64,000 nucleotides of DNA, from NCBI RefSeq assembly GCF_000423445.1, contig NZ_AUHZ01000012.1, positions 1 through 64,000 on the forward strand. Direction: 5' to 3'. The position numbers and the translations under genes were made by a program. The notes under the pieces were generated by a model that worked only from the letters and a program-made list of their open reading frames with translations, was not told the origin of the DNA and ran no database searches. Positions 388 to 4,583 of the stretch are shown piece by piece. The DNA comes from Acidipropionibacterium thoenii DSM 20276. GTDB lineage: Bacteria > Actinomycetota > Actinomycetes > Propionibacteriales > Propionibacteriaceae. Each line of letters opens with the position of its first letter. Positions within the stretch are counted from its first letter, which is position 1.

Positions 388-1038
388 TCAGTCGCTCGGC
401 GGCTTGCTCTCGACCCGGGCGAGGATCGTCGCTGCGACGGTGGCTGTGACGGTCCCGATGAGCCCGATCCCGACGAGCATCAGAAGGATTGCGATGAAGC
501 GTCCCTGGAAGGTGACCGGATAGCGGTCTCCGTATCCAACGGTGGTGACTGTCTCGCAGGCCCACCAGACGGCGTCGCCGAAGCTGGTGATGTTGGCGCC
601 GTGTGCATCTCGCTCGGCCTGGAGGATGGCCAGCGAGCCCAGCCCGACGGCCGCGGATGCAGCCGACGCACGGTAGACGGCTGTCTTTCCGACCAGGGAC
701 GATGTGGCCGACCTGTCGAGGATGCGGAGCAGCGCGACCAGGCGAAGTAGTCGCAGTGGCCTCAGCATGGGTAGCACGACCAGGGCGACGTCGTACCAGT
801 GATGCAGCGCGTAGCTGAGCCTGTGGTCGGCCAGCCACAGCCGGACCGTGAGGTCCACGGCGAACGCGAGCCAGATGGTCCAGGTGGCCACGGACAGCGA
901 GCTTCGCAGGTCAGGGTCCATCCGCGGGTCGAGGATCGGCCATGCATAGGCCACCAGGAAGGCCAGGGCGAGCAACGACAGGGGTACCTCGGACTTCTTC
1001 TCCCACACCTCAACCCTCACGGCATGGGAGTATCCCAC
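388..1038 (-). CDS. Voltage-gated-type potassium channel family protein
   Basis: Predicted 216-residue inner-membrane ion channel. The selectivity-filter motif TVGYGD follows a pore helix (FGDAVWWACETVT), and the last transmembrane helix (ILLMLVGIGLIGTVTATVAATIL) follows it. This is the pore module of the VIC/Kch family. Upstream are hydrophobic segments matching S1-S5, including an Arg-rich stretch (RPLRLLRLVALLRIL) resembling an S4 voltage sensor with Arg every third or fourth residue. No cytoplasmic RCK/TrkA-N domain follows, so this is a short channel. The start is uncertain: GTG at 1038 or GTG at 1020. The gene is isolated, divergent from the next small gene, and lies beside an IS1380 fragment. 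Confidence 0.82.
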   Translation of the reverse strand: MGYSHAVRVEVWEKKSEVPLSLLALAFLVAYAWPILDPRMDPDLRSSLSVATWTIWLAFAVDLTVRLWLADHRLSYALHHWYDVALVVLPMLRPLRLLRLVALLRILDRSATSSLVGKTAVYRASAASAAVGLGSLAILQAERDAHGANITSFGDAVWWACETVTTVGYGDRYPVTFQGRFIAILLMLVGIGLIGTVTATVAATILARVESKPPSD

Positions 1039-1188
1039 TGAGATCGTGACGCACCAGGATGGCCGGCCTGGGTCCGGGGACCCAGGCGATGGCGGAATGT
1101 GACCTGTTCGGGTGACATCTCACCCCAAAGTGTGCTGACGTCAGGCTGCTTTGCGGTGCACAATGGCCCTACCAGTTGGGGGGTTGGC

Positions 1189-1431
1189 ATGGAGGCCGGG
1201 GGAGAGTTGGTCGAGACACTGACGGAGGTCGGTCTCGAGGCGTGCACGGTGCAGGGTGATGGTGGCGTAGCGATGCTGCGAGTCGACGTTGACAGCGATC
1301 GATACGCGATGGTTACGGCCCGTGGTTCGCACTACTGGATGGATGTGTACGAGAACGGCAGGCGCACGTCCACCGGGTCGGCGGCGACCGCCGAGGGGCT
1401 GGTTGCCATGATCATGAGCATTACGGGCTGA
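1189..1431 (+). CDS. Small conserved-type hypothetical protein
   Basis: An 80-residue protein starting at ATG 1189 behind a G-rich stretch. A longer in-frame start at 1099 exists but is less likely because it adds a low-complexity tail. The sequence is acidic with alternating beta-like segments (VAMLRVDVDSDRYAMVTAR, then SHYWMDVYENG) and a short helix at the end (AEGLVAMIMSIT). I do not recognise a family. Codon use is typical of the neighbourhood, which supports a real gene. It stands alone between the divergent channel gene and the interrupted membrane-protein gene. Confidence 0.5.
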   Translation: MEAGGELVETLTEVGLEACTVQGDGGVAMLRVDVDSDRYAMVTARGSHYWMDVYENGRRTSTGSAATAEGLVAMIMSITG

Positions 1432-1528
1432 GTATCCGCTTCCGGGGGCAGTGTGATTCCTGTCAATTCCTTAGGTGCATGATGTGGACAAGCGCCGATG
1501 TTGGTGCTTCCCCTCGAAGAGAAGGACG

Positions 1529-1838
1529 ATGGACGTGTCCCAGCAGCCCTGGCAGCACTCCCAACAGCCATCAGCACCCAAGTCGCCAAAGCCCCGGAGG
1601 TTCGGCCCGGCGGTCTGGGTGGGTCTTGGGATACTTGTCGTATTCGCGTTCATCGGTGTTGCGTCCGGAGGCATCGGCGGGGTGCTAGCGACGGTTGGCC
1701 TCTTCGTCGGAGGGACCGCGTTGTGGCATGTCATAGCAGGCCATTCATGGGCGAGCCCACTCATCCCGGTCGGCCGGGGCAAGGCGGCCATCGGGATCCC
1801 GGTGGCGTTCGGGGTCATGATGGCAGGCGCAGTTATCT
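1529..1838 (+). pseudogene. 5' half of a membrane-protein gene interrupted by the ISL3 element
   Basis: The reading frame starts at ATG 1529 with AGAAGG 5-10 nt upstream. It encodes a Gln/Pro/Lys-rich cytoplasmic lead (about 25 residues), a long hydrophobic hairpin (AVWVGLGILVVFAFIGVAS, then GVLATVGLFVGGTALWHVI) and a third hydrophobic segment (GIPVAFGVMMAGAVI). At 1838 the insertion sequence begins. Translation now continues 10 codons into the IS and stops at 1868-1870. Removing the IS and one target duplication joins base 1838 to 3313 in frame with the right-hand fragment at 3313-3866. The restored protein would have 287 residues. The left fragment may still be expressed as a truncated membrane protein of about 113 residues. 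Confidence 0.85.
1831..1838. repeat. Target-site duplication, left copy
   Basis: AGTTATCT lies immediately left of the IS terminus and is repeated exactly at 3305-3312 immediately right of it. Eight base pairs is the duplication length expected for ISL3-family transposition. Confidence 0.95.
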
Positions 1839-1860
1839 GGCTCTTCATACCTGCGGTGGG
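1839..1860. repeat. Left terminal inverted repeat of the ISL3 element
   Basis: Reads GGCTCTTCATACCTGCGG and on to position 1860. It pairs with 3283-3304 with two mismatches (positions 9 and 13 of the repeat). The last codons and the stop of the transposase lie inside this repeat. Confidence 0.93.
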
Positions 1861-3182
1861 TCCAGGGTGAGTCCGCCGCCGACGAGGAGCATGCGTAGCC
1901 GGTAGTTCTCTCGGTTCCGGAACCCTCGGGCGATGCGGCGGTGGAGCTCGATGAGCCCGTTGATTGCCTCGGTGCCGCCGTTGCTGGCGCGGTCGGTGTC
2001 GAAGTAGGCCAGGAACGCGTCTTTCCACTGTCTCAGGGTTCGGCCGAGGCGGGCGATCTCGGGGATGGGGCAGGACGGGAAGCCGTCGACGACCTGCTCG
2101 GCGAGCTGGCGGCCCTTGCTGGGGTCGGGGTGGGCGTAGGCGGCTCGGACGCGTTGGGCGCACTGCCAGGCGACGTGGACGGCGTCGTGGCGTTCATCGG
2201 CGGCGATCGCCGCGTCGAGGCGGGCCTGTTGCTTGCCGGTGAGCCGCTCGGCGGCGCAGCGGAGCACGTTCCGGATGCCGTAGAGCGGGTCGCCGGAGCG
2301 GCCGCGATGCCCGAGGGTCTCTTGCTGGACGCGGCGGCGGACCTCATCGACCGCGTGCCCGGCCAACGCCACGACGTGGAAGGCATCCAACACGGCGGTG
2401 GCATCGGCGAGCTTGTCATCGATCGCGTTCTTGTAGCCGCGGAACGGGTCCAGGGTCGCGACCTCCACATGCGCCTTGAACGCTTTGCCGCGTTGGTCGA
2501 GCCACGTCTTGTACACGGTCCCGGAGCGGCCGGGGACCAGGTCGAGCAGCCGGGCGTGGACGCGTCCGTCCTTGTCACGGTTCAGATCGACCATGCCGGT
2601 CAGCTCCTTCGGGCCGCGCTTGCGGGGACTCACGTGGTGCCACAGGTGCTCGTCCACCCCGAGGGTGGTCACGCCGGCGAACCGGGCCTCGTCATCGGCA
2701 GCGCCGGCAAGGATCGGCCGGATGCTGGTCCACACGGTCCGCCAGGTGGTGGCCAACTGCCGGGCCAGCCCGGCGATCGAGGCATGCTCGCGACGCAGCT
2801 GCTCCACCACCCAGCGGCACGCCCTCGTGGTGAGCATCGCCCGCGGCCGGGCGACCTGGTCGTCCTGCTCGGTGAACACCCCCACCGGACACGACGGTTC
2901 GACACACTCCCACGTCCGCTTCCGCCACAACACCACCGTCGGCGCCCCGAAGCACGGGGTGTCGACGAGGCGCACCGTCCGCCGACCGTGCGAGGCCGCG
3001 ATGACCCCGCACGAGCGGCAACCCCTCGCCGTCGGCGGCGACTCGACCGTCACCTGCACCCCTCCCGGGTCGCGTTCCACGCCGACCACATGGAGGCCGG
3101 GAAGCCCGACCAGCAGGTCGCAGCGGTCACAGTAGGCGTCGCGGGCAGGGCAGCACGTCGTGCAGGCCGTAGGCTCAGACAC
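1845..3182 (-). CDS. ISL3-family transposase
   Basis: A 445-residue transposase that cuts and joins the ends of its own element. The N-terminus carries cysteine pairs (CTTCC, CDRCD, then CRSCG and CVEPSCPVG), the zinc-ribbon/helix-turn-helix region typical of ISL3 enzymes. The DDE core follows: GVDEHLWHH (first Asp), LDAFHVVALA (second Asp) and GGTEAINGLIELHRRIARGFRN (Glu). The C-terminus ends inside the left inverted repeat. Full length for the family (about 400-450 residues), with no frameshift or internal stop. Starts at ATG 3182, about 100 bp inside the right end, where its promoter must lie. Confidence 0.95.
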   Translation of the reverse strand: MSEPTACTTCCPARDAYCDRCDLLVGLPGLHVVGVERDPGGVQVTVESPPTARGCRSCGVIAASHGRRTVRLVDTPCFGAPTVVLWRKRTWECVEPSCPVGVFTEQDDQVARPRAMLTTRACRWVVEQLRREHASIAGLARQLATTWRTVWTSIRPILAGAADDEARFAGVTTLGVDEHLWHHVSPRKRGPKELTGMVDLNRDKDGRVHARLLDLVPGRSGTVYKTWLDQRGKAFKAHVEVATLDPFRGYKNAIDDKLADATAVLDAFHVVALAGHAVDEVRRRVQQETLGHRGRSGDPLYGIRNVLRCAAERLTGKQQARLDAAIAADERHDAVHVAWQCAQRVRAAYAHPDPSKGRQLAEQVVDGFPSCPIPEIARLGRTLRQWKDAFLAYFDTDRASNGGTEAINGLIELHRRIARGFRNRENYRLRMLLVGGGLTLDPPQV

Positions 3183-3282
3183 AGTCGAGGTCCTCGTGGG
3201 CAGGGAGTGTGGTAACTCCTGATCCTGAGGGCCTCGACCCCTACCTCAGCCCACCCGCCTCACCCGGCGTGTCGCACCCACC

Positions 3283-3304
3283 CCCACCGCAAGTACGAAG
3301 AGCC
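3283..3304. repeat. Right terminal inverted repeat of the ISL3 element
   Basis: The reverse complement begins GGCTCTTCGTACTTGCGG, matching the left repeat at 20 of 22 positions. The right flank AGTTATCT (3305-3312) is the second copy of the target duplication. Confidence 0.93.
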
Positions 3305-3312
3305 AGTTATCT
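3305..3312. repeat. Target-site duplication, right copy
   Basis: Exact second copy of AGTTATCT at the right edge of the ISL3 element. Host coding sequence resumes directly after it in the frame left at 1838. Confidence 0.95.
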
Positions 3313-3866
3313 CGCCCACCCAACCGACCTCGGCACTACCGGCCGCAGACTCAGTGAGCGTCACTCAGGCGCCGAGCATCAGCGCCAGCACCCCGACTCC
3401 GACACCAGCGAACAGCCCGACGCCGAGCAGCACGCCAACTCCGTCCAAGGCATCGACGCCGTCAGCAACTCTGCCCCCGAGCACTGTCGGAACGATCGCA
3501 GCCTCCACGCCCAGGCCCACGGCACCAGCGCCCGCTCTCAGAGCTGTAGCTCCCACGACCAAAGCCACGGCAAGGAACGCAACTCCCACTCGCAAGACAA
3601 CCGCCACACGAGTCGCACCGACCCACAAGGTCACGTCCAAGAGGGCCGCGGCCGTTCCAAGGGCCACGGTCAAGAAGACAACGCCCACCCATAAGGCCAC
3701 GACGAAGAAGGCTGCCCCGACGCACAAGGCCACGAAGGCCCAGTCGCAGGGGACCGTGCACGGCGGATCCTTCTGCTCGTCGCAAGGAGCCACCGGGGTG
3801 ACCTCGGCCGGGACCACCCTGACATGCAAGGTGGCCAAGGATGGCAGGCTGAGGTGGAGGAAGTGA
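3313..3866 (+). pseudogene. 3' half of the IS-interrupted membrane protein: Thr/Pro/Lys-rich linker and C-terminal Cys domain
   Basis: Continues the frame broken at 1838. It encodes a long extracytoplasmic-looking linker rich in Ser, Thr and Pro (TPTPTPANSPTPSSTPTPS), then a basic repeat region with several THK-containing units (APTHKVTSK, TPTHKATTKK, APTHKATK). It ends in a compact domain with two cysteines (FCSSQGATGVTSAGTTLTC, then KDGRLRWRK). That last pattern (Cys, GATGVTSAGT, Cys, RLRWR) recurs at the C-terminus of many actinobacterial surface proteins as I recall them; its function is unknown to me. A GTG at 3354 could restart translation but would give a protein without its membrane anchor. 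Confidence 0.82.
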
Positions 3867-4010
3867 CGTCCCTGGGTCGATCGGCACCTCTGCTTCATAG
3901 GCGGATCTGGTGGTCTCCGATGGGACCGGAGGACACCACAGGATCCGGACTGCGGGAGGTTGGTAGCTGGAGTCGTGCCCGGCCCCGCAGCCGAGTGCAA
4001 GGATGGAGCC

Positions 4011-4583
4011 ATGATCCTGGCTGACCCGCCTCGCGCCGGTGAACTCCTCATCGCGACCTCGGCTGTCACCAGTGGTCTCTTCGCCCGTGCCGTCATCTAT
4101 CTCCTGGACGCCGACGAGCAGGGCAGTCTGGGGGTCATCCTCAACACCCCGGCGCCGATGGAGCTGGCCGATGTGCTGCCCGACTGGGTGCATCTCACCG
4201 CGCCCCCGCAGACCCTCTTCCAGGGAGGCCCGGTCTCTCCCAACGGAGCGGTCTGCCTGGCCCGCCTGCACCACCCCTCCGAGGAGCCGCCGGGCTGGCG
4301 CAGGGTGGCCGGCCCGGTGGGGCTGCTGCATCTGGACACCCCGGTGGAACTGGTCGAGGGGGCCTACTCCGACCTACGGATCTTCGCCGGATACTCGGGT
4401 TGGGAGCCGGGCCAGCTCGAGGGCGAGATCGTGCGGGGCGACTGGGTTCGGGCCCGCGCCCACGAGGAGGATCTGTTCGGCTCCGACCCCCAGACCCTGT
4501 GGCCCAGGGTGCTGCGCCGCCAGAACGGCCAGACCGCCATGATGGCCACGATGCCCGGTCAGCACGCCGAGCATGCCAATTGA
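4011..4583 (+). CDS. YqgE/AlgH family protein (UPF0301)
   Basis: A 190-residue cytosolic protein of the AlgH/YqgE fold. Family signatures seen are GELLIATSAVTSGLFARAVIYLL at the start, GSLGVILNTP, FQGGPVSPNGAVCL, and LRIFAGYSGWEPGQLEGEI near the end. The biochemical role of the family is not settled; in Pseudomonas AlgH was linked to alginate control. The start ATG 4011 was chosen over an upstream in-frame codon because conservation begins at MILADPPRAGELLIA and an AAGGATGGAG stretch precedes it. It sits just upstream of mtrA on the same strand with an 89-nt gap that contains a promoter-like TAGCAT. Confidence 0.88.
   Translation: MILADPPRAGELLIATSAVTSGLFARAVIYLLDADEQGSLGVILNTPAPMELADVLPDWVHLTAPPQTLFQGGPVSPNGAVCLARLHHPSEEPPGWRRVAGPVGLLHLDTPVELVEGAYSDLRIFAGYSGWEPGQLEGEIVRGDWVRARAHEEDLFGSDPQTLWPRVLRRQNGQTAMMATMPGQHAEHAN

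Follow-up and report, generated by a model that had tools for sequence, protein, structure and literature searches.

An ISL3-family insertion sequence that has very probably split a gene for a membrane-anchored linker-module protein in Acidipropionibacterium thoenii

Introduction

Insertion sequences of the ISL3 family are characterized by imperfect terminal inverted repeats and by an 8-bp duplication of the target DNA. Acidipropionibacterium thoenii, the host of the element described here, belongs to the dairy acidipropionibacteria and is a cheese-related bacterium. Related dairy bacteria harbour mobile ISL3 elements, as illustrated by Propionibacterium freudenreichii, for which the accessible part of PMC5644110 reports ISL3 transposases that vary between genome versions of single strains, one of them disrupting CitT.

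The gene interrupted in A. thoenii is compared below with proteins that carry a GmrSD_C domain and, in many cases, a C-terminal Excalibur domain. The latter is presented in the accessible part of PMC5137146 as an extracellular calcium-binding domain with one disulfide. Among the papers listed on GmrSD, Excalibur, exported nucleases and ISL3, no description was found of exported GmrSD_C proteins, nor of the small two-cysteine module reported here. Within its accessible part, the GmrSD paper PMC4619093 does not contain the words secreted, extracellular, signal peptide, transmembrane, Actinobacteria or excalibur, and the accessible parts of PMC6920887, PMC5644110, PMC5137146 and PMC4619093 hold no description of the module.

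The DNA analysed in the present work, hereafter called the window, is a stretch of 64,000 nucleotides of A. thoenii DSM 20276 (contig NZ_AUHZ01000012.1, positions 1 to 64,000). An initial annotation had proposed that a recent ISL3 insertion interrupts a single membrane-protein gene near the beginning of this stretch. The features concerned are the following.

1529 to 1838, plus strand: 5' half of the putative split gene, an N-terminal tail followed by a membrane anchor of three helices (codons 1-103 plus the first base of codon 104; assigned from homologues and a profile match)
1831 to 1838, no strand: left copy of the 8-bp target duplication AGTTATCT, exact
1839 to 3304, minus strand: ISL3-family insertion sequence of 1466 bp, ends matched at 20 of 22 positions
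1845 to 3182, minus strand: intact ISL3 transposase of 445 residues (ORF, NCBIfam and Pfam matches)
3305 to 3312, no strand: right copy of the 8-bp target duplication AGTTATCT, exact
3313 to 3755, plus strand: 3' half of the putative split gene, linker, first Ser/Thr/Pro-rich (Lys+Arg fraction 0.03), then Lys-rich (0.23)
3756 to 3863, plus strand: C-terminal 36-residue two-cysteine module, followed by the stop codon at 3864-3866

Results

The insertion element and its copies

The ends matched at 20 of 22 positions, the full transposase and the exact duplication AGTTATCT that the initial annotation had attributed to an ISL3 element at 1839-3304 were all confirmed. When compared with family models, the transposase scored 270.5 bits (2.3e-80) against NCBIfam transpos_ISL3 (NF033550, cut-off 180) and 182.1 bits (2e-53) against Pfam DDE_Tnp_ISL3 (PF01610, cut-off 23). 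The ISL3 helix-turn-helix (PF13542) was recognized with 31.2 bits for a cut-off of 27.4, and the ISL3 zinc ribbon (PF14690) reached 15.7 bits, below its cut-off of 25.5. The element shares with the family the matched ends, which start with GGCTCTTC, the 8-bp target duplications and the ISL3 DDE transposase, and nothing of note distinguishes it from other members. The intact transposase, the exact duplication and the two gene halves, both of which are still open, fit with a recent insertion. Such an insertion is an ordinary, everyday change in a bacterial genome.

In the 2.94-Mb genome of A. thoenii (45 contigs), the window element is the sole full-length copy at 100% identity, the next full-length copy being 84% identical. 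Exact 8-bp duplications, each copy having its own, were observed for 8 of the 12 copies inspected, or 7 of 11 when the window is not counted; of the remaining copies, L073 and L077 are partial matches, L079 is without duplication, and for L080 the right flank lies outside the data. Since other copies possess exact 8-bp duplications of their own, the boundaries of the element and the length of its duplication are correct. Outside the host genome, the nearest full-length copy is 86% identical (G156; 195 family genomes, best two places per genome), and the element matched 73 plasmid records, every one at 60-80% identity. Furthermore, a stretch of 367 nt in G160, a genome of another genus (contig 1, 97662-98028), is 98% identical to the left end of the element. 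Taken with full-length relatives that do not exceed 86% identity (best two places per genome), this stretch points to a recent exchange of the element lineage.

The joined reading frame and its membrane anchor

Joining position 1838 to position 3313 yielded 864 nt, i.e. 287 codons and a stop codon, without internal stop, exactly as had been annotated. The anchor, the Thr/Pro/Lys linker with THK repeats (three were counted) and the Cys-containing C-terminus claimed for the joined protein are all present. In the present sequence, the two halves are separate ORFs of 131 residues (from GTG 1475) and 170 residues (from GTG 3354), and with the element in place the anchor frame gains 10 residues from the junction and the element and then stops. 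Unjoined, the locus would be annotated as two meaningless small ORFs, in line with the earlier remark that the fragments resemble unrelated small genes. Promoters and terminators were scanned for and none were found.

By itself, the open joined frame proves little in a GC-rich region where long antisense frames also occur. For this reason, homology was sought. Homology at both sides of the junction, together with an anchor profile that aligns across it, is the stronger evidence for the joined reading.

Searches with the 5' half gave matches in 11 of the 293 genomes of the order, that of A. thoenii included, and in five of the ten other genomes the same type of protein was found (L154, L155, L156, L157 and L161). 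The best relative, L154, is 42% identical over 80 residues (E 3.5e-16), and the E values of the four others range from 2e-11 to 3.9e-4. Each of the five is one ORF of 458-490 residues (stop to stop) that encodes, in this order, a multi-helix anchor, a low-complexity linker, GmrSD_C, another linker and a short C-terminal part; according to Pfam, all five have GmrSD_C, and all but L157 have Excalibur. L158, L159, L160 and L162, which matched the 5' half weakly, are other membrane proteins of unrelated architecture, and the tenth genome (L163) gave no ORF match. In the host genome, L010 (E 5.4e-4 to the anchor) is a different small membrane protein and was set aside.

A profile was built from the anchors of L154-L157, the window being left out. 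With this profile, the joined frame obtained 58.0 bits (3e-19), compared with 50.9 bits for the interrupted frame, and its alignment crossed the junction and reached the first, Pro-containing part of the linker; the profile is not fully independent, since its source proteins were found by using the window sequence. At 1e-3, it recognized neither L161 nor L013, a protein in which a multi-helix anchor, a GmrSD_C between two linkers and the module are contained in one ORF. Similarity between the window anchor and other anchors was also compared with that of 500 block-shuffled sequences, and was reached by 421 of them for L036 (multi-helix anchor, linker and module in one ORF), 312 for L049, 126 for L037, 21 for L038 and 2 for L013, the sole one to stand out. 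By these controls, similarity to the L036 anchor is absent, and that to the L013 anchor is only suggestive.

These data bear on whether two adjacent genes, one for a three-helix membrane protein and one for a linker-module protein, were present here, the element lying in the interval or at the end of the former and the joined frame being due to chance. Each half is an ORF today, long chance frames are common in the region, and a single homologue significantly similar to both halves was not found in the searches. However, the anchor relatives continue into a linker, the profile gains 7.1 bits in crossing the junction, and the right frame would be obtained by chance only one time in three. In addition, the 3' half is devoid of export signal, whereas 33 of the 36 other left-closed module ORFs have a hydrophobic segment. 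Two separate genes are thus highly improbable in our opinion, and the interpretation of one split gene is supported. The homologues to which the joined protein was to be aligned according to the initial annotation sustain it for the anchor, whose relatives run into the linker in one frame, and not for the full length, as a whole-length homologue of the joined protein was not found; no close relative of the 3' half was found in the genome contigs.

The linker and the GmrSD_C architecture

The window linker, of about 147 residues, was divided at its middle, a position of our own choice. The first 73 residues are rich in Ser, Thr and Pro and have a Lys+Arg fraction of 0.03, against 0.23 in the other half (74 residues). 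In 13 relatives, this fraction is 0.04-0.13 in linker 1 and 0.01-0.33 in linker 2, linker 2 being richer in nine of them, equal in three (L161, L195 and L196) and poorer in one (L155).

Our own profile detected no remnant of GmrSD_C, either in the joined frame or in any of the six frames of 1400-4100 (best E 0.62). Pfam GmrSD_C matched neither half of the split gene, and in the 3' half Pfam, searched up to E 1, returned no match to any family, Excalibur (PF05901) included. As GmrSD_C is missing between the linkers, the window protein looks like a nuclease-less sibling, and the broken gene like a nuclease-less member of the membrane-anchored GmrSD_C (HNH-type) architecture. With L154, L155, L156 and L161, membrane-anchored proteins having GmrSD_C (PF07510) and an Excalibur tail, it shares the multi-helix anchor, the linker directly after the last helix and a small two-cysteine C-terminal domain; it differs from them by the absence of GmrSD_C and by its tail, which is another module and not Excalibur. 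GmrSD_C proteins of this kind are presumably nucleases. The A. thoenii genome has one GmrSD_C gene at another place (L194, contig 8); its product starts with a hydrophobic segment that is lipobox-like by eye, continues with a Lys/Ala-rich linker and ends in an Excalibur domain recognized by Pfam, and proteins similar to it were observed in same-genus genomes (L195, L196, L198 and L199).

The missing domain may also be read as a deletion: the gene would have lost its nuclease domain and decayed before the arrival of the element, which would then have hit a dead gene. The five anchor relatives indeed all have GmrSD_C, which is lacking here, where two linker types are joined directly; the host genome encodes, in L194, a separate GmrSD_C protein that has a hydrophobic segment at its N-terminus, and four same-genus genomes are without the gene. 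On the other hand, the frame, the anchor and all nine invariant residues of the module are intact, and anchor- or signal-linker-module proteins without GmrSD_C exist in four other genera (L012; L035, L044, L045 and L048; L036; L039). Among these, L036, L012 and L039 share with the window protein an N-terminal hydrophobic segment, a low-complexity linker and the module at the stop; the N-terminal segment of L012 and L039 is lipobox-like by eye, and the anchor of L036 has no detectable sequence relation to that of the window. A gene that was already dead is therefore considered unlikely, and the reading of an insertion into a nuclease-less linker-module gene is preferred.

The C-terminal two-cysteine module

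In an alignment of 15 module sequences chosen from the search matches, nine positions are invariant (Val, four Gly, Cys, two Arg and Trp) and the second cysteine is kept in 14 sequences. The module was found in 16 of the 198 family genomes with a single-sequence search (E ≤ 0.01) and, with a profile (E ≤ 0.001), in at least 33 of the 394 class genomes, the host being counted in both cases; the second number is a lower bound since at most the best 19 candidates per genome were scored. Its distribution is scattered across the Actinomycetes, in several families. In the host genome it occurs once with confidence, two more matches being at E 0.14 and 0.88.

When the 15 sequences were compared with Pfam, one gave a weak match (E 0.091) and the other 14 none, and no solved structure matched the module with any weight (best E 0.9). 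When the terminal 41 residues were folded from the single sequence, the model consisted of strands only, with a mean pLDDT of 80.6 and a pTM of 0.52. As Foldseek gave no match to this fold in the PDB at E ≤ 1e-3, no fold is claimed for the module.

The position of the module was followed in 45 unique ORFs, of which 33 end at most five residues after it. The 12 others comprise eight kinase-like ORFs with 55-69 residues after the module and four with 8, 14, 29 and 170 residues. This census is exclusive of L029 (57 residues, for a limit of 60), of L014 and L030 (loci without an ORF reaching 1e-3) and of four of the 34 profile-matched places, to which no locus corresponds; the kinase L062 exceeded the domain cut-off, and with it the ORFs number 46. 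Homologues starting at the linker without the membrane part, which according to the initial annotation would speak against a split gene, were sought: a hydrophobic segment precedes the module in 33 of the 37 module ORFs whose 5' side is closed (our own hydropathy rule, stop-to-stop ORFs), the exceptions being the window's own 3' half, L017, L024 and L052. In L017, the module lies on an ORF of 73 residues upstream of which no nuclease domain or export signal was seen, and this locus is probably a remnant.

Our own GmrSD_C-type profile matched 61 ORFs, of which 11 have the module, 16 have Excalibur (own profile) and 34 have neither; this sample is biased, because many loci were chosen for holding the module and only part of the GmrSD_C places was taken. 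By analogy of position, not of sequence, the job of the module may be similar to that of Excalibur, and it would probably consist in holding or binding something at the wall.

A module-like stretch was also observed after a hydrophobic segment in nine kinase-like proteins (L051, L053, L055, L056 and L058-L062). Pfam Pkinase was confirmed in L051 and L056, the seven others being kinase-like by the kinase motif alone. These proteins share with the window protein a Cys-Gly-Gly-Cys-Trp pattern outside the membrane, but their stretch is not C-terminal, is attached to a kinase and matches weakly (E 2e-7 to 2e-4).

As a speculative extension, of which we are rather doubtful, the module could be an unnamed extracytoplasmic binding domain that replaces Excalibur on exported GmrSD_C-type nucleases and is used by other wall-spanning proteins and also by kinase ectodomains. 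The split gene would then encode a nuclease-less presenter, acting as scaffold or competitor for the binding site of the nuclease and silenced by ISL3 in this strain.

The locus in the genus

Just downstream of the split gene, the YqgE/AlgH gene is 92% identical to its copy in Acidipropionibacterium jensenii DSM 20535, and the DNA similarity of the same-genus genomes to the window begins at 3995-4000. In the four genomes of the same genus, the stretch compared just upstream of YqgE (about 3.1 kb in G004 and 7.6-7.9 kb in the other three) contains nothing that corresponds to window positions 388-3863, a weak 45-residue transposase match (L082, E 0.002) aside. Neither gene half was detected in these four genomes at E ≤ 1e-3 (in one search, among the best 60 of 94-126 candidates per genome), and the module alone was likewise absent. 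Given the lack of counterpart and of gene halves, an empty site could not be seen in the four genomes, and none was found. The region without counterpart includes, besides the split gene, 1099-1431 and an ion-channel gene at 388-1038 on the minus strand (Pfam Ion_trans_2, 6.1e-17).

The flanks of the element, when read as an empty site, leave a whole frame, which would also suit a reversible switch by which the element moves in and out and only part of the population displays the module. The variation of ISL3 transposases among co-existing P. freudenreichii genome versions, one of them in CitT, goes in the same direction (accessible part of PMC5644110). Nevertheless, none of the present data demonstrate the precise excision of an ISL3 element, and only one copy at 100% identity exists in the genome. 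A switch of this kind seems to us extremely improbable.

Discussion

The best explanation of the locus, which we hold with good confidence, is that an ISL3 element has split one gene for a membrane-anchored linker-module protein, a nuclease-less relative of the GmrSD_C proteins, whose display would thereby be lost. In the intact protein, three membrane helices would hold the linker of about 147 residues, Ser/Thr/Pro- and then Lys-rich, which would span the wall and display the small two-cysteine module at its tip. An ISL3-family element would have transposed into this single gene, producing the usual 8-bp duplication, and its cut would fall where the third membrane helix ends, immediately ahead of the extracytoplasmic linker. 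With the element present, the anchor would end 10 residues further on, and the linker and module would be left without export signal. For these two reasons, surface display of the module is most likely abolished by the insertion.

Joining the flanks of the element thus reveals one membrane-anchored protein and a recurring architecture. Beyond the split-gene reading, this architecture is apparently of the GmrSD_C type without the nuclease, and carries an unnamed module at its tip. Neither a Pfam model nor a solved relative was found for this module, which mostly occupies the outer end of exported-looking proteins of Actinomycetes and stands in the place of Excalibur in some GmrSD_C proteins. 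The nuclease-less architecture and the unnamed module, rather than the insertion, are the noteworthy part of the locus, and we consider them modestly interesting.
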